From an uncultured Oscillospiraceae bacterium (GTDB lineage: Bacteria; Bacillota; Clostridia; Oscillospirales; Oscillospiraceae): a stretch of DNA of 63,586 bases. This document shows, in pieces, positions 23,909 to 53,893 of the stretch. The stretch is from NCBI GenBank assembly GCA_947169975.1, contig CAMVRT010000014.1, positions 1 to 63,586 on the forward strand, read 5' to 3'. Position numbers and translations under genes: made by a program. Position 1 is the first letter of the stretch. Every line of letters begins with the position of its first letter. The notes beneath the pieces were generated by a model, which was not told the DNA's origin, did no database searches, and saw only the letters and a list, made by a program, of their open reading frames with translations.

Positions 23909-23938
23909 TTGCCTAACCGGGGTATGATTTGGTATAAT
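23909..23938 (+). promoter_or_regulatory. Promoter of the NiCo riboswitch/CDF transcript
   Basis: TTGCCT at 23909-23914 and TATAAT at 23933-23938 with 18 bp spacing. It ends just before the riboswitch. Confidence 0.65.
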
Positions 23939-23945
23939 CGCTTTG

Positions 23946-24050
23946 CTGAACAGGCTGTGCCCTATGGGGCATGAGGCCGGGTTACGGAGGATAACAGCGA
24001 ACCGTGTTCGCAGGACAGTGAAGGAGCTCACTGCCCTGCTTTTTCTTTTT
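23946..24050 (+). promoter_or_regulatory. NiCo (czcD) riboswitch with overlapping terminator
   Basis: The leader contains the conserved blocks of the Ni2+/Co2+-sensing RNA: GGCTGTGCC, GGCATGAGGCCGGGT, ACGGAGGATAACAGC, GAACCGTG and GCAGGACAGTG. The last block forms the 5' side of a terminator stem (24010-24021 with 24028-24039) followed by a T-rich run at 24040-24050. Metal binding should therefore block termination and turn on the exporter. The downstream CDF gene is the classic partner of this class. Confidence 0.88.
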
Positions 24051-24062
24051 GGAGGGATCGAA

Positions 24063-24932
24063 ATGGAACCAAACAGAGACGCCATGACCGTCTCATGGGT
24101 CAGCATCATCGTCAACGTGGCGTTGGCGGCGGGCAAGCTGGCGGCGGGACTTCTGGCCAGATCCAGCGCCATGGTGTCCGACGCCGTGCACTCCGCGTCG
24201 GACGTATTCAGCACCGTGGTGGTGATGATCGGCATTCGCCTCTCCGGCAAGGAGCAGGACCGGGATCACCCCTACGGCCACGAGCGGATGGAAAGCGCCG
24301 CCGCCGGCATTCTGGCCATCGCGCTGGCCGCTGTGGGCATCGAGATCGGCCTCACCGGCATCCGGCACCTGATCTCCGGCGATTTCCGCACGGCCGCAGT
24401 GCCCGGTCTTGCGGCGCTGATCGCGGCGGCAGTGTCCATCGTGGTGAAGGAAGCCATGTTCTGGTACACCCGCACCGCGGCAAAGCGCATCCGCTCCGGC
24501 GCGCTGATGGCCGACGCCTGGCACCACCGCTCCGACGCCCTGTCCTCCGTGGGTGCGCTGATCGGCATCGGCCTGGCCCGGCTGGGCTATCCGGCGGCGG
24601 ACGCCGTGGCCAGCCTCATCATCTGCCTGATGATCCTGAAGGCCGCCTTCGACATCTACCGGGACAGCCTGAACCGCATGGTGGATCACAGCGCCGACGA
24701 GGAGACGGTGCAGCGCATCCGGCAGGCGGTGGAAAGCGTGCCGGGCGTGGTGCGCATCGACGATCTCAAAACCAGGATGTTCGGCAGCCGGCTCTATGTG
24801 GATATCGAGATCGCCGCCGACAGCACCCTGCTTCTCTCCGAGGCCCACGCCATCGCCGAAGCCGTCCATGCCACGGTGGAGCGGGAGTTTGACACCGTGA
24901 AGCACTGCATGGTCCACGTGAACCCGGCATAA
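24063..24932 (+). CDS. czcD: Cation diffusion facilitator (CDF) metal exporter
   Basis: This 289-residue inner-membrane proton-coupled divalent metal exporter has six predicted helices and a cytosolic C-terminal domain. The transport-site motifs are SDAVHSASDVFS in helix 2 (H..D pattern) and ADAWHHRSDALSS in helix 5. The C-terminal ferredoxin-like domain (about 210-289) ends in HCMVHVNP. The ATG at 24063 follows GGAGGG by 6 bases. The NiCo riboswitch upstream indicates that Co2+ or Ni2+ induces it and is probably the exported metal. Confidence 0.94.
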   Translation: MEPNRDAMTVSWVSIIVNVALAAGKLAAGLLARSSAMVSDAVHSASDVFSTVVVMIGIRLSGKEQDRDHPYGHERMESAAAGILAIALAAVGIEIGLTGIRHLISGDFRTAAVPGLAALIAAAVSIVVKEAMFWYTRTAAKRIRSGALMADAWHHRSDALSSVGALIGIGLARLGYPAADAVASLIICLMILKAAFDIYRDSLNRMVDHSADEETVQRIRQAVESVPGVVRIDDLKTRMFGSRLYVDIEIAADSTLLLSEAHAIAEAVHATVEREFDTVKHCMVHVNPA

Positions 24933-42516: not shown

Positions 42517-45500
42517 TTACCGCACGGTCAGCACCGCGGCCTCGGTGGTCACGGTATTGCCGTTGGCGTCGGTAATAATGCAGCGGTACTGCTGGCCGTT
42601 GCGGGCGGCGGTGGCCTTCACGCTGAGGCTGGCGGTCCTGTTGCCGGTCATGGAGGAGTTGACCCACTTGCTGCCGGTGTAGTACTGCCACCGGTAGGTC
42701 AGGTCAGCGCCGGTGGCGGCAACAGTGAACGTTGCCATCTCGCCTGCGTTGGCGGTGACGTTCTGGGGCTGGGCGGTGACGGTGAGCTTCACGGTCAGCT
42801 TGACGACCAGAGTGGTAACCGTCTTGCCGTCGGCGTCGGTGATGACACAGCGGTACTGCTGTCCGTTCCGGGCGGCGGTGGCCTTTACGCTGAGGCTGGC
42901 CGTCTTGTTGCCGGTCAGGCCGGAGTTGAGCCACTTGCTGCCGGTGTAGTACTGCCACTGGTAGGTCAGGCCGCTGCCGGCGGCATCCACGGTAAACACG
43001 GCGGCGGTGTTCAGCTCACAGTTGGCGCTCTGGGGCTGGGCCATGATCACGGGGCCGCTGCCCACTACCAGCCAAACCTCGTCGGAGATAACCTGGTTGC
43101 CGGCGTCGTCGGTCACGATGCAGCGGTACATCTGGCCGCTGCGGGCGGCGGTAGCGACCACTCGCAGTGCGGCGGTCTTGGCGCCGGTCATGGAGGAGTT
43201 GCGCCATGTGCCTCCGCCGGGGGCCTTGTACTGCCACTGGTAGGTCAGACCGTGGCCGGTGGCCTCCACCGCGAAGACGGCGGTCTCGCCCTCAGCGCCC
43301 ACGAAATCCTCCGGCTGGGACACGATGGCCACAGGATCGAAGGTCACCTGCAGCTGGGCGGCCTCGGAAACGGCCTCATTGCCGAGACGGTCGGTGACCA
43401 CGCAGCGGTACTGCTGGCCGTGGCGGGAAGCAGTGACGGGCACGTGCAGTGAGGGGGTGTCGGCGCCGGTCATGCCGGAATTGCGCCAGACACTGCCGCC
43501 GGCGGCCTTGTACTGCCACTGATAGGTCAGGTCAGCGCCCTCTGCCGCCACGGTAAAGACGGCAGTCTCGCCCACGGAGCCGGTGAAGCTCTCAGGCTGG
43601 GCGGTGATCACCACGGGGGCGATCTCCACCAGAGCGTCGATGGCGTCCTCAATGGCCTGGGCCATGGCGTCCACCTGGGCCTGCTTGTCGGAGGTCAGAT
43701 CCCGCACCACCGCGTCGATGGCGGATTGCAGGGCGGCAACGCTCTCGTCGGTGTAGATGCTCAGATCGGCAGGCACTCTGGCAAGGGCGGCGTCCACCGC
43801 CGTGTAGTCGGCGTACACCTTGTCGATGACCAGCGTGCCCTCCGCCTCGCTGACGGTGAACTGGCGCTCATACCAGCTGTCGTTCTTCACGGAGTGGAAA
43901 CTCACGATGAAGGGCTCGTCCAGCAGGTTCACCAGCGTCTCGGGCTGGCCGAAGTTGGCAACCCACTTCACCGGCAGGGAGAATACCTGCTCCTCCGTCA
44001 CGTCGATGACGGCGGTATCCTCGCCGATCTCGCTCATGCGGCCCACATAGGCCTTGTCGAAGGAGGTGCTGCCCATGGTCAGCTCCAGCGTGGACTTGTA
44101 GTTGTTGCTGTTGGGACCGCCCACGGTATCCAGCGCAGCGCCGGACACCTTGAACATGGTCACGTTGTTGGTGACCGTCAGCTCACGGCTGAACTCATAG
44201 TCGCCGGTCACCAGCGTGGCGGCCTCCCGGTCCAGCTCCATCTGGCGGGGATAGAAGGCCCGCTCCAGAGAGTTCTGGCCGTTGAGGTACTTCTCGTAGT
44301 AGGAATTGGAGATGGCCACCACGGGGATGTAACTCTCGTCCTCGGCCACGGGGATGCGGAACTCCCACTTGCCGGCGTCGTTGACGGCGCCGTGGATCCA
44401 GTTGTCGGTGTTGTCGCCGTTGGCCACAGCCTGCTCGTAGGTGCCCTTGAACAGCTCGTGATAACCGGTGCCGGACAGGGCCATCACCAGCGTGGTCTGG
44501 CCGTCCTCGATCTCCAGATACGCGGTCACGGCCTTGAACATGCCGGTGTTGTTGGTGATGGTCAGGTCGGTGCGCTGCACCCGCTCCACCAGAGCGTCGA
44601 TGGCGTCCTCGATGGCCTGGGCCATGGCGTCCACCTGGGCCTGCTTGTCGGAGGTCAGATCCCGCACCACCGCGTCGATGGCGGATTGCAGGGCGGCAAC
44701 GCTCTCGTCGGTGTAGATGCTCAGATCGGCAGGCACTCTGGCAAGGGCGGCGTCCACCGCCGTGTAGTCGGCGTACACCTTGTCGATGACCAGCGTGCCC
44801 TCCGCCTCGCTGACGGTGAACTGGCGCTCATACCAGCTGTCGTTCTTCACGGAGTGGAAACTCACGATGAAGGGCTCGTCCAGCAGGTTCACCAGCGTCT
44901 CGGGCTGGCCGAAGTTGGCAACCCACTTCACCGGCAGGGAGAATACCTGCTCCTCCGTCACGTCGATGACGGCGGTATCCTCGCCGATCTCGCTCATGCG
45001 GCCCACATAGGCCTTGTCGAAGGAGGTGCTGCCCATGGTCAGCTCCAGCGTGGACTTGTAGTTGTTGCTGTTGGGGCCGCCCACGGTATCCAGCGCGGCG
45101 CCGGACACCTTGAACATGGACACGTTGTTGGTGACGGTCAGCTCACGGCTGAACTCATAGTCGCCGGTCACCAGCGTGGCGGCCTCGCGGTCCAGCTCCA
45201 TCTGGCGGGGATAGAAGGCCCGCTCCAGGGAGTTCTGACCGTTGAGGTACTTCTCGTAGTAGGAATTGGAGATGGCAACCACGGGGATGTAGGTCTCGTC
45301 CTCGGCCACGGGGATGCGGAACTCCCACTTGCCGTCGGCGTTGACGGCGCCGTGGATCCAGCTGTCGTTGCCGTTGTCCGCCGTGCCGTCGCCGTTGGCC
45401 GCCGCCTGCTCATAGGTGCCCTTGAACAGCTCATGATAGCCGGTGCCGGACAGGGCGAAAACCAGCGTGGTCTGGCCGTCCTCGATCTCCAGATACGCGG

Positions 45501-46230
45501 TCACAGCCTTGAACATACCGGTGTTGTTGGTGATGGTCAGGTCGATGTGCTCCGGCTCGGATACTGTGCTCTCCTCAATGGTGGTGGTCAGAGAGAAAGC
45601 GATGGGGATCGGCATGCTGGTAGAAACGCCGTTAAAGTAAAACGTGCTGTTCAGATCGATGGGCACGTTGGCGAATTCACTGTTGCCGGATGTGTTGGTC
45701 TTGGCGTACTCCGTGCCGTAGATCATAATGCCGCTGTAGGAGCTGCTCTCCACGGTAATGGTGGCATAGGCCTTGCCGTCCCGGACTTCCACCTCTTTCA
45801 CGCTCCAGGGCTTCTGGCGGCTGGAGGTGCTCTTGCCCTTGCTGTACTCGGAGCTCAGCGCGGGCTCGCTGGTGGCGTTATAGACGCCGTCGGGCAGTGT
45901 GGTGGAGTTGTCTGCCTCGTCGAAGGACCACACCGTCCACAGGGCGGACTCCAGCACACGGCCCAGAGGCTGACCCGTTCCGGTGTGGGTGCAGCGTTCA
46001 TCCAGTATGGCCTGGTCCTCTGCGCTCAGCGCGTCGTAATCGGCTTTGATGCCCTCGACCATTTCGCGGTCGGCAGCAGTATAGTCATGGGCATCTGCTG
46101 ACAGCGCCTCGATCTCCGCCGCCACCTCATCCACCGTATTGGCGTCAGCGGCAAAGGCAGGCGTCACGCAGGAAAGAGCCATGATCATTGCCAGCAGAAG
46201 CGCCAGCAGTTTGTTTGTTGTCTTCTTCAT
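42517..46230 (-). CDS. Cobalamin-regulated secreted protein with NEAT-like, FIVAR-like and Ig-like domains
   Basis: This 1237-residue exported protein has a signal peptide at 1-27 ending AFAA. A conserved helical stretch and a NEAT-like beta domain follow (about 108-215: LPDGVY, SEYSKGKSTSSRQKPW, DGKAYATITVES). Next are two near-identical 320-residue modules (226-546 and 547-867). Each is a beta-rich unit beginning LTITNNTGMFKAV followed by a FIVAR-like helical unit (YTAVDAALARVPADLSIYTDESV). Four YQWQY-type Ig-like domains (867-1237) end the protein. No transmembrane anchor is seen. It sits directly behind a cobalamin riboswitch and downstream of a BtuFCD-type transporter. I infer corrinoid capture or delivery at the surface; heme or another tetrapyrrole is the alternative, given the NEAT resemblance. 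Confidence 0.88.
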   Translation of the reverse strand: MKKTTNKLLALLLAMIMALSCVTPAFAADANTVDEVAAEIEALSADAHDYTAADREMVEGIKADYDALSAEDQAILDERCTHTGTGQPLGRVLESALWTVWSFDEADNSTTLPDGVYNATSEPALSSEYSKGKSTSSRQKPWSVKEVEVRDGKAYATITVESSSYSGIMIYGTEYAKTNTSGNSEFANVPIDLNSTFYFNGVSTSMPIPIAFSLTTTIEESTVSEPEHIDLTITNNTGMFKAVTAYLEIEDGQTTLVFALSGTGYHELFKGTYEQAAANGDGTADNGNDSWIHGAVNADGKWEFRIPVAEDETYIPVVAISNSYYEKYLNGQNSLERAFYPRQMELDREAATLVTGDYEFSRELTVTNNVSMFKVSGAALDTVGGPNSNNYKSTLELTMGSTSFDKAYVGRMSEIGEDTAVIDVTEEQVFSLPVKWVANFGQPETLVNLLDEPFIVSFHSVKNDSWYERQFTVSEAEGTLVIDKVYADYTAVDAALARVPADLSIYTDESVAALQSAIDAVVRDLTSDKQAQVDAMAQAIEDAIDALVERVQRTDLTITNNTGMFKAVTAYLEIEDGQTTLVMALSGTGYHELFKGTYEQAVANGDNTDNWIHGAVNDAGKWEFRIPVAEDESYIPVVAISNSYYEKYLNGQNSLERAFYPRQMELDREAATLVTGDYEFSRELTVTNNVTMFKVSGAALDTVGGPNSNNYKSTLELTMGSTSFDKAYVGRMSEIGEDTAVIDVTEEQVFSLPVKWVANFGQPETLVNLLDEPFIVSFHSVKNDSWYERQFTVSEAEGTLVIDKVYADYTAVDAALARVPADLSIYTDESVAALQSAIDAVVRDLTSDKQAQVDAMAQAIEDAIDALVEIAPVVITAQPESFTGSVGETAVFTVAAEGADLTYQWQYKAAGGSVWRNSGMTGADTPSLHVPVTASRHGQQYRCVVTDRLGNEAVSEAAQLQVTFDPVAIVSQPEDFVGAEGETAVFAVEATGHGLTYQWQYKAPGGGTWRNSSMTGAKTAALRVVATAARSGQMYRCIVTDDAGNQVISDEVWLVVGSGPVIMAQPQSANCELNTAAVFTVDAAGSGLTYQWQYYTGSKWLNSGLTGNKTASLSVKATAARNGQQYRCVITDADGKTVTTLVVKLTVKLTVTAQPQNVTANAGEMATFTVAATGADLTYRWQYYTGSKWVNSSMTGNRTASLSVKATAARNGQQYRCIITDANGNTVTTEAAVLTVR
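43629..45553 (-). repeat. Internal 960-bp tandem duplication within the surface protein gene
   Basis: Positions 43629-44588 and 44589-45553 are nearly identical. Long runs match base for base, e.g. the lines starting 43681 and 44641. They differ by scattered substitutions and an 18-base indel near 45370. The period is 960 bp (320 codons), so the frame is kept. Confidence 0.9.
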
Positions 46231-46294
46231 ACTTTCTCCTTCCGGACTGTCATCGGCAGTCCTCGTTCTCTGCGGGGACGCTGAAGTCCCCTCC

Positions 46295-46457
46295 CGCGCA
46301 GCAGGTTTCCTGGCTTTCGGATCGTCGCGTCGGCTGCGCCTTCTCATGCCTTTTGGCACAATGGCGTATTGCTGCCGCTGCTCCCCGCTTACAGTGACCG
46401 GATCGCCCGGGATTTTCACCCGGTTCCCTTTTCCGCCCCCTTGGGCGGCACTGCGCG
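46295..46457 (-). promoter_or_regulatory. Cobalamin riboswitch 1
   Basis: Read on the minus strand: CGCGCAG opens P1; then come GGGAACCGGGTGAAAATCC, GGTCACTGTAAGCGGGGAG, a GCATGAGAAGGCG segment and the B12 box GCCAGGAAACCTGC (46314-46301), closed by CTGCGCG. Two downstream hairpins (GGGGAC/GTCCCC at 46274-46291 and GGACTG/CAGTCC at 46244-46262) precede the AAGGAG site and could form the expression platform. It lies between the transporter ATPase gene and the surface protein gene. Confidence 0.93.
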
Positions 46458-46471
46458 AGTCCTCTCGTTTT

Positions 46472-46502
46472 ATGACCGGCCTTCCCGGCCGGAGCCGGTC
46501 AT
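46472..46502 (-). terminator. Terminator overlapping the end of the transporter ATPase gene
   Basis: ATGACCGGC pairs with GCCGGTCAT around a GC-rich inner stem and is followed by AAAACG on the minus strand. It includes the TGA stop. The T-run is missing, so it may only weaken read-through into riboswitch 1. Confidence 0.5.
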
Positions 46503-47620
46503 TTTCCGTCCGTTCCCCCCTCCCCGTCTCTCAACAGTCCGAGAGACCTGGCTTCTTGTATCAGCTCCGCCATGCGCCGGTTGGTCTCCCCCAGGGGGAC
46601 GCCGGTACAGATCACGGTTTCGCACATTTTCATCAGTTCCATCGCACGGTCATAAGCTGTGTCGGAAATGGGTACAAAGGGCCGCTCGGTGACCACCTCG
46701 GCGGCCAGACTCCGGGCCACCTGACAGTCCACATCGTTTTCATAGAGGATGCCCGCGTAAAACGGCACTCCCTCCTTCTGCAGGCGGCGGAAGGTGCCCA
46801 CGCCGCTGCCGCAGCCGGAAATGACAAAAGTTTTGGGTTCGCCCTTGGGCCGCGGCATCTCCACGCTGCCGAAGGTGATATTGTAGGCGCCGTCGGCAAT
46901 CCCGTAGAGGTCGTTGATGATCTCCGGGCGGAAGATCTCGTCCGGCGTGCCGAAATGCCGGATTGTCTCGCCGCTGACGCACATGATCTTGTCGGCGATC
47001 TTCTGGGCAAAGTCGATCTCGTGGAGGGACATGATGACGGTGATGCCCTTCTCCTTGGCCATGGTGCGCAGGATGCTCAATAACTCCAGCTTGTGCCGGA
47101 TGTCCAGGAAGGAGGTGGGCTCGTCCAGCACGATGATCTCCGGCTCCTGGCAGATGGCACGGGCCAGCAGGATCCGCTGGCGCTGGCCGTCGCTGATGGC
47201 GGTAAAGTCCCGGTTGGCCAGCTCGGCGGCATGGACCTTTTCCAGTGCAGCCCACACCTTGTCACGGTCCTCCTGTGAGAGAAGGCCCAGGGTGTTGGTA
47301 TAGGGATAGCGGCCGGTGGCCACCACATCCCAGCAGGTCAGCAGCTCGCCCTTGATCCGTTCGGTGAGCACCACCGCCAGCTTGCGGGAGAGCTCCTTGT
47401 AGCTCATGCCCTTCACCGAGGCGTCGGCAATGAAGCTGTCGCCCCGGATGGCGGCGAGGTGCTTGGTGATGCTCTTTAATATGGTGGATTTGCCGGAGCC
47501 GTTGGGTCCGATGAGGGTCAGGATATCCCCGGCCTTGACGCGGATCTCAATGTCCCGGATGAGGGTATTGCCGTGATAGCCCACGGAGAGATCCTCCGTG
47601 CGGAAATAGTACTCGTTCAT
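46499..47620 (-). CDS. Corrinoid/siderophore-type ABC transporter ATP-binding protein with extra C-terminal domain
   Basis: This is a BtuD/FecE-type ATPase energising import. The ABC domain (1-255) has Walker A LIGPNGSGKSTIL, the signature ISDGQRQRILLARA, Walker B IIVLDEPTSFLD and the switch His (SLHEIDFA). Residues about 258-373 are an extension not present in classical BtuD, starting KTFVISGCGSGVGTFRRL, with a Gly-rich loop and a Rossmann-like pattern. The gene is 12 bases from the permease gene. Placement between two cobalamin riboswitch-controlled genes supports corrinoid as the cargo. Confidence 0.9.
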   Translation of the reverse strand: MNEYYFRTEDLSVGYHGNTLIRDIEIRVKAGDILTLIGPNGSGKSTILKSITKHLAAIRGDSFIADASVKGMSYKELSRKLAVVLTERIKGELLTCWDVVATGRYPYTNTLGLLSQEDRDKVWAALEKVHAAELANRDFTAISDGQRQRILLARAICQEPEIIVLDEPTSFLDIRHKLELLSILRTMAKEKGITVIMSLHEIDFAQKIADKIMCVSGETIRHFGTPDEIFRPEIINDLYGIADGAYNITFGSVEMPRPKGEPKTFVISGCGSGVGTFRRLQKEGVPFYAGILYENDVDCQVARSLAAEVVTERPFVPISDTAYDRAMELMKMCETVICTGVPLGETNRRMAELIQEARSLGLLRDGEGGTDGK

Positions 47621-47632
47621 TACCGCACCCCC

Positions 47633-48670
47633 TTACGCTTTGCTGCCGTGGCGGCGGATCAGCATGGCGATGACCACCGGCGCGCCCAGCAGAGCCGTGA
47701 CGGTGCTGATGGACAGCTCATTTTCAAAGGCCATGCGGGCGATGTAATCGCAGAACAGGCAGAACACGGCGCCGCCCAGAAACGAGGCCGGGATCACCAG
47801 AATGGGCTTGGCGGTCTTGAGCAGCATCTTGATGAGGTGGGGCACGGCGATGCCCACAAAGGAGATGGGTCCGGCAAAGGCGGTGACGCAGCCGGCGATG
47901 AGGCTGGACATGAGGATCAGCAGCACACGGAAGCGCTTGACGTTGACGCCCATGCTCTGGGCGTAGGCCTCGCCCATCTGATAGGCGTTGATGGGCTTGG
48001 ACATCAGGAACACCGCCACCAGGCACACCAAGATGATGGCTGTGAACACGTACACGTCGCTCCACTTGGTGCCGGAAAAGCTGCCCTGTGACCAGTTGTG
48101 GAGATTGACGATATCGGAATCCTTGGCGAAGTTGATCAGGAATTCCGTGATGGCCGAGCAGATATAGCTGATCATGATGCCGGCCACCAGCAGCATGGAC
48201 ATCTGCCGGATGGAGCGCGCCGCCAGCAGCACAAAGCCCATGGCGATCAGCGCGCCGACAAAGGCGGCAACCACCATCATCCACGAGGAGATGAAGGGGA
48301 TATACTGCAGCGCCACGATCATGGTAATGGCCACGAACAGCTTGGAGCCGGAGGAGATACCCAGCACGAAAGGCCCGGCAATGGGGTTTCCGAAAAAGGT
48401 CTGCATCAGGAAGCCGGACAGGGCAAGGCCGCCGCCCAGCACCGCCGCGGCAATGATACGGGGCAGGCGCAGCTTCCACACGATGTTTACCTCCGACAGC
48501 TCGCCCTGACGGAGAAAGATGATCCGGGCGATATTGCCCACGGAGATATGGACGCTGCCGGTGTTGATATTCCACACCACCAGCAGCACAAGGGCGGCAA
48601 TGAGCCCGGCAAATACAACGCCGTAGCGGACGCGGCGGACGCCGGAATGGCTCATGGATAATTGATTCAT
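47633..48670 (-). CDS. Corrinoid/siderophore-type ABC transporter permease
   Basis: This 345-residue membrane protein of the BtuC/FecCD family has about ten helices. Family motifs are LRLPRIIAAAVLGGGLALSG (near 70-90), NPIAGPFVLGISSG and AGPISFVGIAVPHLIK, which contains the coupling loop to the ATPase. It follows the binding-protein gene by 15 bases. It should form the import channel with the ATPase encoded downstream. Confidence 0.92.
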   Translation of the reverse strand: MNQLSMSHSGVRRVRYGVVFAGLIAALVLLVVWNINTGSVHISVGNIARIIFLRQGELSEVNIVWKLRLPRIIAAAVLGGGLALSGFLMQTFFGNPIAGPFVLGISSGSKLFVAITMIVALQYIPFISSWMMVVAAFVGALIAMGFVLLAARSIRQMSMLLVAGIMISYICSAITEFLINFAKDSDIVNLHNWSQGSFSGTKWSDVYVFTAIILVCLVAVFLMSKPINAYQMGEAYAQSMGVNVKRFRVLLILMSSLIAGCVTAFAGPISFVGIAVPHLIKMLLKTAKPILVIPASFLGGAVFCLFCDYIARMAFENELSISTVTALLGAPVVIAMLIRRHGSKA

Positions 48671-48685
48671 CGGTTGATCCCCCGT

Positions 48686-49846
48686 TTACTGGAGCTTGAA
48701 GAGGTACGTCAGCTTCTGCCCGTCGGCCTGTCCGGTGAGGATCGCGTTCATCTCCTGAATGATGGTGCCCATCTTGTCGGTCTGCTGGAACATGCTGTGG
48801 GTGGTGCACCAGACGTTGCCCTCCCGCACGGCCTTGCAGTCCTCCAGCACCGGGTTCAGGCTCAAAAGATCGTCCAGCGTGTAGAGCTGGGAGGCGATGC
48901 TGCAGTTGTAGATGAATACATCCGCGTCCTTGGCGGTGTCGTAAAACCGCTCCATGTCGATGTTGATGGTGCTGAGCTTGCTGTCGTCGTCCAGCCCCAG
49001 GTCGGTGAACACGTACTCGCCGCCTGCGATGCGGATCATGGCGGGCACGTAGCCGTTGGTCTTATAGGTCACCACGTTGCCGCTGGTGTTGATATAGAAG
49101 AAGGCGACGGTCTTGCCGGTGCTCTCCAGAGACTCCAGCGCGCGGATCTTCTCCACCTCGCGCTTGAAAACGGCGTTGGCCTCCTCCTCCTTGCCCAGCA
49201 GGGTGCCGTAGACCTTCACCCATTCGGTACGGCCCAGGGGATGGCTCTCATAGCTGGAGCGCTCCACCACGGTCTTGATGCCCAGGTCGATCAGCATCTC
49301 CTTGACCTCCGGATTGTGGAGGATCATGGTGGACTCGATGGCCAGCTGACAGCCGCCGCCCACCAGCTTCTCATAGTCGGGGGTGTTATACTTTCCGGCG
49401 TAGTCAAACTTGCCGGCCTCATACGCGCTCCGGGCTCCCTCGGTGTACCAGTGCTGGCTGCCCACAAAGGTAATGCTGTCCAGCTCATCAATGGCTTCGA
49501 AGAATGCCATGGCGGAGGTGGCGGCAAGGTAGATATGGCTCAGCGGCTGCTGCACCACCACGATGTCGCTGTCCAGACCCACGGGGACCTCCTTCCCCTC
49601 CGGCACCACCAGGATCCGGTCGCTGTTGACCATCTCAATGAGAGAGTAGCCGCCCTCATATTTGTAGATGGCAAATTGATCGGCGTATTCCAGCGGCACG
49701 GTGCCCAGGTATTTCAGACTCCCTGCCGCAGGCGGACCGCCGGCATTCGCGGCCTTTTTGCCGCAGCCGCCGAGAACCGTCATGCTCATGACCGCGGCCA
49801 GCAGCAACAGCGCTGAAAGGACGCGGGTAACGGTCGTTCTTCTCAT
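48686..49846 (-). CDS. Corrinoid/siderophore-type ABC transporter substrate-binding lipoprotein
   Basis: This 386-residue lipoprotein has a signal peptide with lipobox VLGGC at about residue 28 and a periplasmic-binding fold of the BtuF/FepB class. Visible segments include VVVQQPLSHIYLAATSAM and GIKTVVERSSYESHPLGRTEWVK, which resembles the BtuF domain linker region. The ATG lies 1 base after the stop of the surface protein gene upstream, so the two are translationally coupled. It would hand its ligand from the surface proteins to the permease. Confidence 0.9.
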   Translation of the reverse strand: MRRTTVTRVLSALLLLAAVMSMTVLGGCGKKAANAGGPPAAGSLKYLGTVPLEYADQFAIYKYEGGYSLIEMVNSDRILVVPEGKEVPVGLDSDIVVVQQPLSHIYLAATSAMAFFEAIDELDSITFVGSQHWYTEGARSAYEAGKFDYAGKYNTPDYEKLVGGGCQLAIESTMILHNPEVKEMLIDLGIKTVVERSSYESHPLGRTEWVKVYGTLLGKEEEANAVFKREVEKIRALESLESTGKTVAFFYINTSGNVVTYKTNGYVPAMIRIAGGEYVFTDLGLDDDSKLSTINIDMERFYDTAKDADVFIYNCSIASQLYTLDDLLSLNPVLEDCKAVREGNVWCTTHSMFQQTDKMGTIIQEMNAILTGQADGQKLTYLFKLQ

Positions 49847-49847
49847 A

Positions 49848-52800
49848 TCATTCACCTCTGTTTTTTCTCTTGCGCGATCCGAGGACATAGCCGGCTCCGC
49901 CGCCGGCCAGGAAGCAGCCCGCCGCAATGGCGATCACGGCAGCGGTGCCCAGTCCGCTCTCGCTCTCCCCGCTTTGCGTTTCCGCCCCGTCGGCTCCGCC
50001 GATGATCAGCTCGTCGGGATGGCCCTTCATGGGACCTGTGGGCTCCTCTGCCCCGGGCAGATCTTCATGGCCGGGCTCATCCCCCCCGCCGGGCTCGTCC
50101 GGCGGCGTGATATCAACGGCCTGTGACGGATCGGTCAGCGGCACGCCGGTGGGATCGAAGAAGACAGTATAGACCACCTCATAGGGCTGGGACATGGCGC
50201 TGGTCACCGTGGCCACATCCTGATAGCCCAGATCCGGGATCTGCACATGGCGGAAGGTGCAGGTGCAAGCCTCCTCATCCGTCTCGGGGGCGTACGTCCC
50301 GTAGGCGGTGGTCAGCGAGTCATAGCGCGGCGCGTGAAGCGGCGCCGTCACCCGCTTGAAAACGATGTCGACGTAGAGGTTTCCCTCCTCCACGTAGAGG
50401 GTGGCGGGAGACACCAGCGTATTGTGCCACTCCTCGCCCGTGAGCCGGCAGGCGATGGTGTAGGTGCCGTCCACATACTTTCCGGCAGCGGCCGCAGGCG
50501 TCACTGCGGTGGGAGCGGGCTCCGTCTCCTCCTGCTCCTCGGGCAGGACAGTATCCGTCCCGTCGGCGGCGCTGATTACGATGGTCTTCGCCAGCTTGTC
50601 GATGACCATCTGATAGGTCACCGTCTGGCCGGTGGCTGCCACGCGGAACAGCATCACAACCGGCTCGCCGTCCCGGAACGCCGTCACACCGGGTGCGTTC
50701 AGCAGATTCAGCGCGAAGGTGTTGTCCGGGCCAAGGTCGGCAGTTGCCTCGGTGACCTGACCGTTCATCACGGTGGGATAGGTCACCCGGTCATAGGTAG
50801 CGTCCAGCATCTGCAGGGTGGGCGCCACATTGTAGTTATTGGAGTTGGGACCGCCGGCTACATAGACTTTGGCGGTATCCGCCACACGGAGATTGGGATC
50901 GCTGCTGGTGACGGAGACGGTGATGGTCTCCTCATAGTCGCCGGTCACCAGCGTGCCGGCGGCCTCGTTCAGCACCAGCTGACGGGGATAGAAGGCCCGG
51001 GCGACAGACTGGCTCTGGCCGCTGTCATACCGCCCCACCTCCCGGAAGGAGATGGCCACGCAGGGGATATAGCTCTCGCCGGTATTCAGCGGGATCGCAA
51101 ACTCCCAGTGATCCTCGGCGTTTTTGGTGCCGCTGATCCATTTGGAGCGGTCGTTGCCGTTGGCAACAGCCTCCTCATAGGTACCCTTGAAGAGATGATG
51201 GTACCCGTCGCCGGACAGGGCGACCACCAGCCGTGCCTGACCGCCGCTGCGCTCCACCCGTGCGCTCACCGCCTTGAACATGCCGGTGTTGTTGGTGATG
51301 GCCAGCTCCGTCTCGCCTTCCGGTCTGCGCACCAGCGCGGCAACGGCAGTCTCAATGGCGCGGGCCATGGCGTCCACCTCGGCCTGACGGCTCACCTTCA
51401 GCCCCCGCACCACAGCGTCTCTCGCGCTCTTTACGGCGGCGGCGGTCTCATCTGTGTAAACGTTCAGATCGGCGGGGATCTTCGCCAGCGCGGCGTCCAC
51501 CGCACCATAATCCGCCTCTCTCTCCGTCAGCGCGGCAACGGCGTCCTCAATGGCGCGGGCCATGGCGTCCACCTCGCTCTGGCGGCTCTTTTTCAGCCCC
51601 CGCACCACGGCGTCTCTCGCGCTCTTTACGGCGGCGGCGGTTTCCTCTGTGTACACGCTCAGATCGGCTGGGATCGTTGCCAGTGCCGCGTCCACCGCCG
51701 TATAGTCCGCCCCGGCTTCCACCAGCGACGCCACAGCAATGTCGATGGCAAGGGCCATGTCGTCTACCTCGCTCTGGCGGCTGAGGCGCAGATTCCGGAT
51801 CACGCCGTCCCGGGCGGCTTCCACCGCCGCGGCAGTTTCCGGCGTATAGATGCTCAGATCCGCGGGGATCTTCGCCAGTGCGGCGTCCACCGCCGTATAG
51901 TCGGCGTAGTAGTTCAGCAGCTCCTCGCCCTCCAGCGTCAGCGTGCCGGAAACCAGATCCAGCGTCAGCTGTCTCACCAGCTCGTCGCCGGTCTCCCGCA
52001 CGCGGAAGCGGACCTCCACGCTCTCGCCGTCCCGGAAGCACCGGTTCTCCGGCGTATTGGTGAGGCGGATGGTAAAGGTGCTCTGCTCCGACAGGTTTGC
52101 CGTCCGCTCCTGCAGCTTCCCGTCCTTCACCGTCATATATGTCGCGCGGTCGTAGGCGTCGTCCTCCATGGTCAGGCGGATCCGCTGGGTGTATTCCGGC
52201 GCGTTGGGATCTCCCGTCACACGCACGCTGGCGGTCTTCCTGACCGGAAAGCTGTTGAGATTGTTGACGATCTTCACCTTGACCGTCTCATCGTAATCGC
52301 CGGCGGTCAGGGTCTTTTCCGACCTGTCCAGCGTGATCTGCCAGGCGTGGAAGGCGTCGGTCACGCTGTCGCTCTCCTGCAGCTCGCTGCGGGAGATGGC
52401 CACGCAGGCCAGATACGTCTCCGTCCCCTTCAGAGGAATGGTAAATACCCGCTTGGCGGGCTCGTTTTTCTCTCCGGCGATCCAGTTGTCCCGGTTATCG
52501 CCGTTGGCGGCGGCCTGGGCAAAGGTGCCTATGTACAGGTGGCGGATATCGCTGCCCGACAGGGTGACCACCAGCGACGTACGGCCATTGTCCTGCAGCA
52601 GATACGCGCTGTCCGCCTTCACCGCCGTGCCGGTATTGGTGACCGTCAGATCGGTCCGCACCGGTTTCTTCACCAGGGCGGCGACGGCCTCCTCAATGGT
52701 GCGGGCCATGGCATCCACCCGGGCCTGCTCGCTCTTCTTCAGGCCGCGGACCACGGCATTTTTCGCCTCGGTCAGACGCCGGACGCTCTCCTCCGTGTAG

Positions 52801-53543
52801 ATGCTCAGATCGGCGGGGATCTTTGCCAGCGCCGCGTCCACCGCCGTATAGTCCGCGTCCTCCTCCGGCTCGTTCTCCGGCTCGTCAATGAACGTGGTCA
52901 GGGAGAAGGCGATAGGGATCGGCATGGTGGTAGACACGCCGTTGAAATAGAAGGTGCTGTTCAGATCCACCGGCACATCGGCAAACTCGCAGTTTCCGGA
53001 GGTGTTGGTGCGGGCATAGACGGTGCCGTGGAGCATGATGCCGCTGTAGGTATCGCTTTCCACGGTGATGGTGGCGTAGGCCTTGCCGTCCCGGACTTCC
53101 ACCTCTTTCACGCTCCAGGGCTTCTGGCGGCTGGAGGTACTCTTGCCCTTGCTGTACTCCGAGTTCAGTGCGGGCTCGCTGGAGGCATCGTAGACGCCGT
53201 CCGGCAGTGTGGTGCTGTTGTCGGGGATGTCGAAGGACCAGACGGTCCACAGGGCGGACTCCAGCACACGGCCCAGGGGCTGGCTGGTCTCCGGATGGGT
53301 CGTGCGGCTGTCCAGCGCCGCCTGATCCGCCTCGCTCAGCGCCTCGTAGGCGTGCCAGACGGTCTCTACCCGCTGCCGGTCCGCGGCGGTGTATTCCCGG
53401 GCGTCCGCCGGCAGGGCCTCGATCTGCGAGGCGACCTCGTCCACCGTCTTGCCGGCGGCCAGCACGGGCACGATCCCGGATACCGCGATCACAAAGGCCA
53501 GCGCCAGCGCCAGCAGCTTGCTTCCCACCGTTCTCATCGTCAT
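49848..53543 (-). CDS. Cobalamin-regulated membrane-anchored surface protein with two NEAT-like domains
   Basis: This 1231-residue exported protein has a signal peptide (1-30) and a NEAT-like domain (about 110-220) nearly the same as in the gene at 42517-46230. Four FIVAR-like helical units follow (about 230, 543, 615 and 678 onward), with two beta-rich modules of the LTVTN/LAITNNTGMFKAV type (293-545 and 745-990). A second NEAT-like domain lies at 1022-1130 (GKYVDGTYTIACRL, EEGNLYVDIVFK). After a Pro/Gly/Glu-rich stalk, a single transmembrane helix (1197-1222) ends in RKRKNRGE. There is no LPXTG motif. The ATG at 53543 follows AGAGG by 10 bases. It is the first gene behind cobalamin riboswitch 2 and is coupled to the binding lipoprotein gene. 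Confidence 0.88.
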   Translation of the reverse strand: MTMRTVGSKLLALALAFVIAVSGIVPVLAAGKTVDEVASQIEALPADAREYTAADRQRVETVWHAYEALSEADQAALDSRTTHPETSQPLGRVLESALWTVWSFDIPDNSTTLPDGVYDASSEPALNSEYSKGKSTSSRQKPWSVKEVEVRDGKAYATITVESDTYSGIMLHGTVYARTNTSGNCEFADVPVDLNSTFYFNGVSTTMPIPIAFSLTTFIDEPENEPEEDADYTAVDAALAKIPADLSIYTEESVRRLTEAKNAVVRGLKKSEQARVDAMARTIEEAVAALVKKPVRTDLTVTNTGTAVKADSAYLLQDNGRTSLVVTLSGSDIRHLYIGTFAQAAANGDNRDNWIAGEKNEPAKRVFTIPLKGTETYLACVAISRSELQESDSVTDAFHAWQITLDRSEKTLTAGDYDETVKVKIVNNLNSFPVRKTASVRVTGDPNAPEYTQRIRLTMEDDAYDRATYMTVKDGKLQERTANLSEQSTFTIRLTNTPENRCFRDGESVEVRFRVRETGDELVRQLTLDLVSGTLTLEGEELLNYYADYTAVDAALAKIPADLSIYTPETAAAVEAARDGVIRNLRLSRQSEVDDMALAIDIAVASLVEAGADYTAVDAALATIPADLSVYTEETAAAVKSARDAVVRGLKKSRQSEVDAMARAIEDAVAALTEREADYGAVDAALAKIPADLNVYTDETAAAVKSARDAVVRGLKVSRQAEVDAMARAIETAVAALVRRPEGETELAITNNTGMFKAVSARVERSGGQARLVVALSGDGYHHLFKGTYEEAVANGNDRSKWISGTKNAEDHWEFAIPLNTGESYIPCVAISFREVGRYDSGQSQSVARAFYPRQLVLNEAAGTLVTGDYEETITVSVTSSDPNLRVADTAKVYVAGGPNSNNYNVAPTLQMLDATYDRVTYPTVMNGQVTEATADLGPDNTFALNLLNAPGVTAFRDGEPVVMLFRVAATGQTVTYQMVIDKLAKTIVISAADGTDTVLPEEQEETEPAPTAVTPAAAAGKYVDGTYTIACRLTGEEWHNTLVSPATLYVEEGNLYVDIVFKRVTAPLHAPRYDSLTTAYGTYAPETDEEACTCTFRHVQIPDLGYQDVATVTSAMSQPYEVVYTVFFDPTGVPLTDPSQAVDITPPDEPGGGDEPGHEDLPGAEEPTGPMKGHPDELIIGGADGAETQSGESESGLGTAAVIAIAAGCFLAGGGAGYVLGSRKRKNRGE

Positions 53544-53672
53544 TTCTTTACAGCCTCTCTTCTCATGCAAAAAGTGCCCGCTTCCGGACGGACGCAGGCA
53601 CAACAAAAGACCGCGCGGTCGCCGCGCAGCTCCTCTATTGCGGCATTTGCCCACCCCGGAGGCCTCAACCAC

Positions 53673-53849
53673 TTTTTCAGCAGGTTTCCTGACTCACGGC
53701 TCTCCGTCCCCGGCGACGCCTTCTCATGCACGCGGCACAATGGCATACTTCGCGCCGGGACTCCCCGTTCACAGTGACCGGATCGCTCAGGATTTGCACC
53801 TGATTCCCTCTTTCACCGGCGCTGTCCGAAGCGTCGGTGCACTGAAAAA
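53673..53849 (-). promoter_or_regulatory. Cobalamin riboswitch 2
   Basis: On the minus strand: TTTTTCAG opens P1; then come GGGAATCAGGTGCAAATCC, GGTCACTGTGAACGGGGAG, GCATGAGAAGGCG and the B12 box AGTCAGGAAACCTGCTGA (around 53693-53678), closed by CTGAAAAA. The P1 3' strand CTGAAAAAGTG can instead pair with CACTTTTT at 53576-53569 close to the ribosome site, a plausible switch. Confidence 0.93.
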
Positions 53850-53864
53850 TATTGTAACAGAATG

Positions 53865-53893
53865 ATTATACCAGCCAATTCCGCTCTTTGCAA
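53865..53893 (-). promoter_or_regulatory. Promoter of the cobalamin-regulated operon
   Basis: Minus-strand TTGCAA (53893-53888) and TATAAT (53870-53865) with 17 bp spacing, ending about 15 bases before riboswitch 2. Confidence 0.85.

Follow-up and report, generated by a model that had tools for sequence, protein, structure and literature searches.

The Isd heme relay of Staphylococcus, Bacillus and their relatives is built from surface proteins with NEAT domains, the lipoprotein IsdE, a FecCD-family permease and an ATPase. In the Bacteroidota, the riboswitch-linked surface proteins BtuG and BtuH (DUF4465) feed a corrinoid ATP-binding cassette (ABC) transporter; BtuG is a beta-propeller, BtuH has a C-terminal B12-binding domain, and the arrangement includes an outer membrane and BtuB (PMC6977713, PMC8941943). 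Predicted btuH homologues in three Firmicutes species, one of them near an ECF-type transporter (PMC8941943), give surface capture of B12 a precedent there, and DUF4465 is listed for the Bacillota (PMC13398666). P. gingivalis encodes IhtB, a CbiK-like putative heme-binding lipoprotein, together with the Iht ABC transporter (PMC10913741). Here we describe a gene cluster that shares features with each of these systems. It lies in a 63,586-nucleotide stretch of DNA (the window; NCBI GenBank assembly GCA_947169975.1, contig CAMVRT010000014.1) from an uncultured Oscillospiraceae bacterium. We put at about 0.68 the probability that its two long surface proteins and its transporter form a cobalamin-repressed corrinoid uptake (capture) system of a single-membrane bacterium, the single membrane being suggested by the assignment of the host to the class Clostridia.

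The cluster has the composition given in the original prediction: all genes on the minus strand, two cobalamin riboswitches, a promoter-like site, a transporter and two long exported proteins. Riboswitch A (53662..53861, minus strand, as for all cluster coordinates below) forms the leader of the anchored surface protein P0002 and of the transporter; behind it lie P0002, a Peripla_BP_2 lipoprotein, a FecCD permease and an ABC ATPase, in this order. Riboswitch B (46283..46470) is the leader of the second surface protein, P0001. Scores against Rfam RF00174 are 97.3 bits (E 5e-23) for A and 102.1 bits (E 2e-24) for B, both above the gathering score of 31.5 bits. Cobalamin riboswitches are usually OFF switches. 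A terminator-like hairpin of nine pairs with a T-rich tail (53610..53630) is located 31 bases past aptamer A, between the riboswitch and the start codon, which suggests control through transcription termination; in the leader with riboswitch B the scan found no terminator-like site on the minus strand. Upstream of riboswitch A, at the end of the originally described span, is a promoter-like site with an extended -10, TTGCAA-17-TATAAT (53865..53893). This is a consensus match only, in a region where 13 such sites occur against 2.2 expected.

Both surface proteins had been said to share a NEAT-like domain. Directly, this does not appear: the Pfam NEAT model (PF05031) gives E 0.39 for one protein and no match for the other, and NCBIfam likewise yields no significant NEAT match. 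It holds by way of relatives, in many of whose loci a pair of domains, type B followed by type A, recurs. A profile of this pair (A5), built from 80 loci of named genomes, matches seven places in P0001 and P0002 (E 3.8e-13 to 1.7e-4); where the A and B profiles cross-matched weakly, no extra domain was counted. Of the 80 relatives, 69 have a Pfam NEAT match at E<=0.01 (best 3e-11). Using hhalign against 16 classic NEAT domains, type A reached a profile probability of 96.75% over 102 columns and type B 96.88% over 101, the Ig controls giving 1.38% and 0.13%, respectively. The window domains compare well with their family (A with A 95.3%, B with B 98.5%); set directly against classic NEAT domains they give 49.6% for A and 2.8% for B. 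Since the window matches the family and the family matches classic NEAT, the comparison supports types A and B as divergent NEAT-lineage domains. Against sequences in the PDB, the top match of the NEAT-pair profile is a NEAT entry, at E 0.3. The ITNNTGMFKAV module, described as an unnamed beta-rich module, corresponds to type B and so is itself of NEAT lineage by way of its relatives.

The relatives in named genomes were collected by a scan with two NEAT-domain peptide motifs, which returned at least 559, of which the best 80 were analysed. A cobalamin riboswitch is in place at 72 of these 80 loci, 69 by a B12-box pattern within 2.5 kb upstream and three by Rfam; all 12 pattern-positive loci that were rechecked with Rfam were confirmed. 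CbiK is a neighbour in 79 of the 80 loci, the binding protein in 74, the permease in 67, the ATPase in 65 and other corrin genes in 24, the transporter counts being lower bounds because contig ends truncate several of the loci. In 11 loci the NEAT pair and the binding protein form one fused protein, and in three the pair is fused with CbiK. A twelfth possible fusion to the binding protein (L090) was excluded because its frame ends where the binding protein begins.

The same association is seen in samples taken by taxonomy. The N-terminal domain of P0001 has matches in 12 of the 150 family genomes searched, the host genome included, providing 12 relatives' loci (L020-L031), and a search of the class (18 of 293 genomes, host again included) added 27 (L117-L143). 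Type A is present in 29 of these 39 loci, and none of the 29 lacks a corrinoid-linked neighbour, be it a riboswitch, the binding protein, CbiK or a corrin gene. The weakest case is L143, where B12 boxes are seen by pattern only, the transporter scores low and one match is CbiJ-like. A riboswitch occurs in 22 of the 29 type A stretches, some 9 kb distant in L024 and L123. The ten remaining loci have type B only; six have a corrinoid link, two of these with a riboswitch seen, and one locus that contains CbiK (L134) shows no riboswitch by Rfam. Type B was dropped as a marker of corrinoid systems alone, because four of the ten (L130, L131, L137, L138) lack a corrinoid link. The phylum search matched 14 of 299 genomes; the nine loci from genomes not yet examined, which were the only ones taken, include type A in eight, CbiK in nine and a B12 box in eight. 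Separately, in L024 and L123 type A and a CbiK homologue stand beside genes that by eye resemble those of heme or siroheme biosynthesis, possibly a second context of the domain.

As background, the 2.16-Mb host genome contains four cobalamin riboswitches, about 0.04 per 20 kb, and at least one was found in 81 of 98 class genomes. The control consisted of eight classic NEAT loci of 5 to 19.5 kb from seven of nine matched genomes (G224 and G246, which fall below the Pfam cut-off and belong to the corrinoid set, were left out, as were two small contigs of G679). These eight loci contain no cobalamin riboswitch, no CbiK and no corrin gene match, and their permease and ATPase matches do not exceed 159 bits; two control genomes, G536 and G523, are also weakly matched by profile A5 (E 5.6e-6 and 7.5e-4). 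Co-occurrence with cobalamin riboswitches as opposed to heme or iron regulation, on which the original prediction had turned, is thus borne out (72/80 named and 22/29 wider loci against 0/8), iron or Fur control not having been searched for. The NEAT lineage would also suit a heme or porphyrin uptake system that happens to be cobalamin-controlled. The linkage to riboswitches and corrin genes, absent at classic NEAT loci, argues against this explanation, which for this and further reasons given below we regard as quite unlikely.

P0002 (1231 residues, 49848..53543) comprises a signal peptide and helical spacers, both assigned by eye, and the following domains: an N-terminal type A domain (52878..53291; profile match 52962-53120, E 1.7e-4), a first, degenerate type B module (52386..52649; E 4.9e-7 and E 6.4e-8 in two profile searches), a second type B module, which is the ITNNTGMFKAV module (50904..51320; E 9.8e-12), and a C-terminal type A domain (50148..50489; E 1.7e-11) close to a membrane-like segment at about residues 1196-1222, followed by KRKNRGE. 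P0001 (1237 residues, 42517..46230), also with a signal peptide by eye, has an N-terminal type A domain (45586..45819; E 2.5e-6), two type B modules with the first and second copies of ITNNTGMFKAV (45154..45543, E 3.5e-11; 44191..44565, E 3.8e-13), helical spacers and C-terminal Ig-like domains (Ig_3, three stretches). The start codons used, 53543 and 46230, are those closest to the signal peptides; the mechanical starts give longer open reading frames. Neither protein contains LPXTG, and a membrane-like C-terminal segment is found in P0002, not in P0001. The spacers, described as FIVAR-like in both, gave a weak match in one (FIVAR E 0.098) and none in the other in the Pfam scan. A P0001 relative in L021 (4076-8401, minus strand) carries three S-layer homology domains, an alternative wall attachment, in contrast to the Ig-like domains of P0001.

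The transporter of four window-like loci (L020, L021, L129, L135) is directly preceded by a small anchored protein with a single, motif-bearing type A domain, so that P0002 looks like such a protein joined behind a long surface protein. The Ig-like domains and helical spacers of the long proteins, and the existence of some type-B-only proteins without corrinoid neighbours, could also be explained if the long proteins had ordinary wall or adhesion roles, their domains being beta-sandwiches, and were only co-regulated with the B12 transporter. This appears very improbable given the small anchored type A proteins next to the transporter and the fact that the NEAT pair is fused with the binding protein (11 loci) or with CbiK (three).

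The end of the type A domain reads T-x-A-M-S-x-P-[H/Y]-x-x-x-Y, with the threonine, the methionine and the last tyrosine conserved in 80 of 80 loci. The first motif position is a histidine in 73 and a tyrosine in only seven, which departs from the YXXXY on strand 8 of heme-binding NEAT domains and again argues against heme as the ligand. In the S. aureus heme NEATs, iron is bound by the first tyrosine of YXXXY (PMC4684392). When 20 type A and 16 classic domains are aligned together with MAFFT, [H/Y]xxxY falls in register with YXXXY; in hhalign it is two residues off. The SXXXXY of the 3-10 helix is also absent: by eye, the A5 consensus is GGSGKAS in type A and SSSSMF in type B. Within the window, the motif is kept as YxxxY in the C-terminal type A domain of P0002 (SAMSQPYEVVY), and both motif residues are lost in the N-terminal domains of P0002 (TMPIPIAFSLT) and P0001 (SMPIPIAFSLT), which were for this reason rejected as metal-binding candidates.

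The transporter had been classified as BtuFCD-type. The best NCBIfam match of the FecCD-family permease (47633..48670) is BtuC, with 210.7 bits for a cut-off of 334. The ABC ATPase (46499..47620) has a C-terminal extension outside its FecE match which, taken alone, matches the 'corrinoid ABC transporter ATPase' model only (E 7.9e-8). The binding lipoprotein (48686..49846, lipobox by eye) is closer to heme-binding proteins than to BtuF. Used alone in phmmer it gives no match at 0.01; through profile A7 its nearest solved sequence is Lmo2184 (E 2.8e-9), which we take to be HupD, and more weakly IsdE (E 0.0029). The HGMP stretch of solved Lmo2184 and IsdE, whose histidine in IsdE presumably binds heme, is replaced by YNSTIDG-like letters in all 19 binding proteins compared, none of which has HGM. 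For HtsA, Met79 and His229 are named (PMC4684392). The Isd-like profile combined with the loss of this stretch leads us to read the binding protein as derived from an Isd-type ancestor, with a changed ligand, although the same protein is the main evidence for heme uptake. Thus, the cluster shares with the Isd relay its NEAT-lineage surface domains, an IsdE-related lipoprotein, a FecCD permease and an ATPase, and a wall-to-membrane relay is plausible. Unlike Isd, it has a cobalamin riboswitch, mostly HxxxY, no HGMP stretch, a CbiK partner in the family and linkage to corrin genes. Because both the motif and the HGMP stretch, when tested, proved different, we do not file it as an Isd member.

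The CbiK homologues next to the NEAT pair carry a lipobox by pattern in 65 of 79 loci, and several of the other 14 have a signal-like N-terminus by eye. Of the 79 homologues, 78 contain GHG and all contain GDHA; these presumably carry the metal-site histidines of CbiK. In the family sample, CbiK is fused with NEAT-lineage domains in L022, L027, L028 and L031, with three S-layer domains in addition in L027 and, by eye, two CbiK copies in L028 and L031. CbiK is absent from the window cluster itself. The only CbiK match of the host genome is on another contig (G000:C2), where a third cobalamin riboswitch (L032:7331-9502) is followed by CbiK with a lipoprotein-like signal and by a 174-residue type B protein that also has one, so that in this genome the canonical set is divided between two places. 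The data could also be read to mean that exported CbiK inserted cobalt into extracellular tetrapyrroles, or exchanged their metal, and the NEAT proteins and transporter then imported a cobalt tetrapyrrole and not finished corrinoids. The conservation of an apparently exported CbiK beside the NEAT pair, its retained residues, the three CbiK-NEAT fusions and the pairing behind the third riboswitch all favour this surface metalation, or precursor salvage. We nevertheless consider it unlikely: CbiK is missing from the window cluster, the importer parts resemble corrinoid transporters, and we know of no extracellular source of sirohydrochlorin.

Compared with solved sequences, the host CbiK is closest to the cobaltochelatase 1qgo (E 3.9e-35) and then to the heme-binding FetB (9b86, E 1.5e-28), a further point on the side of heme uptake. 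FetB and IhtB are, we assume, one protein. PMC13402209 presents FetB of P. gingivalis as a porphyrin chelatase. The system here shares with IhtB and the Iht transporter a CbiK-homologous lipoprotein, of which 9b86 is a solved relative, encoded with an ABC transporter. It differs in that the P. gingivalis system is presented as a heme/iron or porphyrin system and NEAT domains are not mentioned in the available sections (PMC10913741). Elsewhere in the host genome, a corrin gene cluster with CbiD is found on C11 and PF02310 at three places, while PF02607 (MetH-type) was not found; the organism is probably a corrinoid maker that also salvages. A weak fourth riboswitch (L033:10666-10894, G000:C12; 43 bits) was not used; no gene clearly follows it on the same strand.

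A number of observations weigh against corrinoid uptake. The 80 analysed relatives are the best-scoring, and the scan was seeded with loci found by NEAT homology (L025, L026, L027, L029, L030) that all have corrinoid genes as neighbours, which gives undue weight to one orthologous operon. Eight of the 80 named loci have no riboswitch in place: six show none by Rfam (L076, L077, L095, L102, L112, L084), the L079 sequence starts just upstream of the NEAT pair, and the box of L059, by pattern, is about 5.6 kb upstream. No riboswitch was found in seven of the 29 type A stretches either (L023, L025, L026, L027, L125, L129, L140), and the four unlinked type-B-only loci show no corrinoid gene nearby. 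In the transporter, the whole ATPase scores 201.7 bits with FecE and 202.2 with the corrinoid model (cut-off 537), and neither ATPase nor permease reaches its curated cut-off. The binding protein has its nearest relatives in Lmo2184 and IsdE; moreover, the IsdE model matches 12 of the 19 binding proteins, among which no BtuF model matches at E<=0.01. As to the surface domains, the type A domain at the N-terminus of each window protein is without the motif residues, and absence of YXXXY does not exclude heme, since in a survey (PMC4143258) about half of NEAT domains lack it, including its whole Clostridial group, for which other heme contacts are proposed. A CbiK-like chelatase is known from a heme/porphyrin system (FetB; PMC10913741, PMC13402209). 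Finally, the host's own corrin genes mean that uptake is not its only possible source of corrinoids.

With these reservations, the proposed corrinoid capture system might work as follows, the ligand, the repression and the order of hand-over being suggested by genomic context, the fusions and the analogy with Isd. Low corrinoid would lift riboswitch repression. The long wall proteins of NEAT-lineage domains would capture corrinoids, or cobalt tetrapyrroles closely related to them, and a membrane-near type A domain with [H/Y]xxxY, whose histidine or tyrosine might contact the cobalt, would take the ligand over from them. It would then pass to the binding lipoprotein and enter through the BtuCD-type transporter, in a relay resembling that of Isd with the ligand changed. 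Outside the cell, the exported CbiK may bind tetrapyrroles or insert metal into them. Similar gene sets are found in many gut Clostridia and are probably their way to catch B12-like molecules. A broader proposal, which we hold tentatively and at somewhat less than even odds, is that one branch of NEAT domains was re-tooled for corrinoids, histidine replacing the iron-binding tyrosine, together with an exterior cobaltochelatase and an IsdE-derived binding protein, and that gut Clostridia acquire B12 at the surface mainly in this way, as the single-membrane counterpart to BtuG/BtuH.

Our search of open PubMed Central, which leaves most subscription papers and preprints outside, returned no description of a NEAT-lineage B12 capture system, nor any paper joining a NEAT domain with a cobalamin riboswitch or with a cobaltochelatase. 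The cluster provides a concrete and widespread candidate with named parts for a possible switch from heme to corrinoid within a single fold. It also raises the new question of why a cobaltochelatase should be exported.

Outside the cluster, the window contains a NiCo riboswitch on the plus strand (23936-24020; 40.9 bits, cut-off 37). It coincides with the start of an open reading frame (23943-24932) whose product resembles, by eye, a CDF (cation-efflux) transporter.

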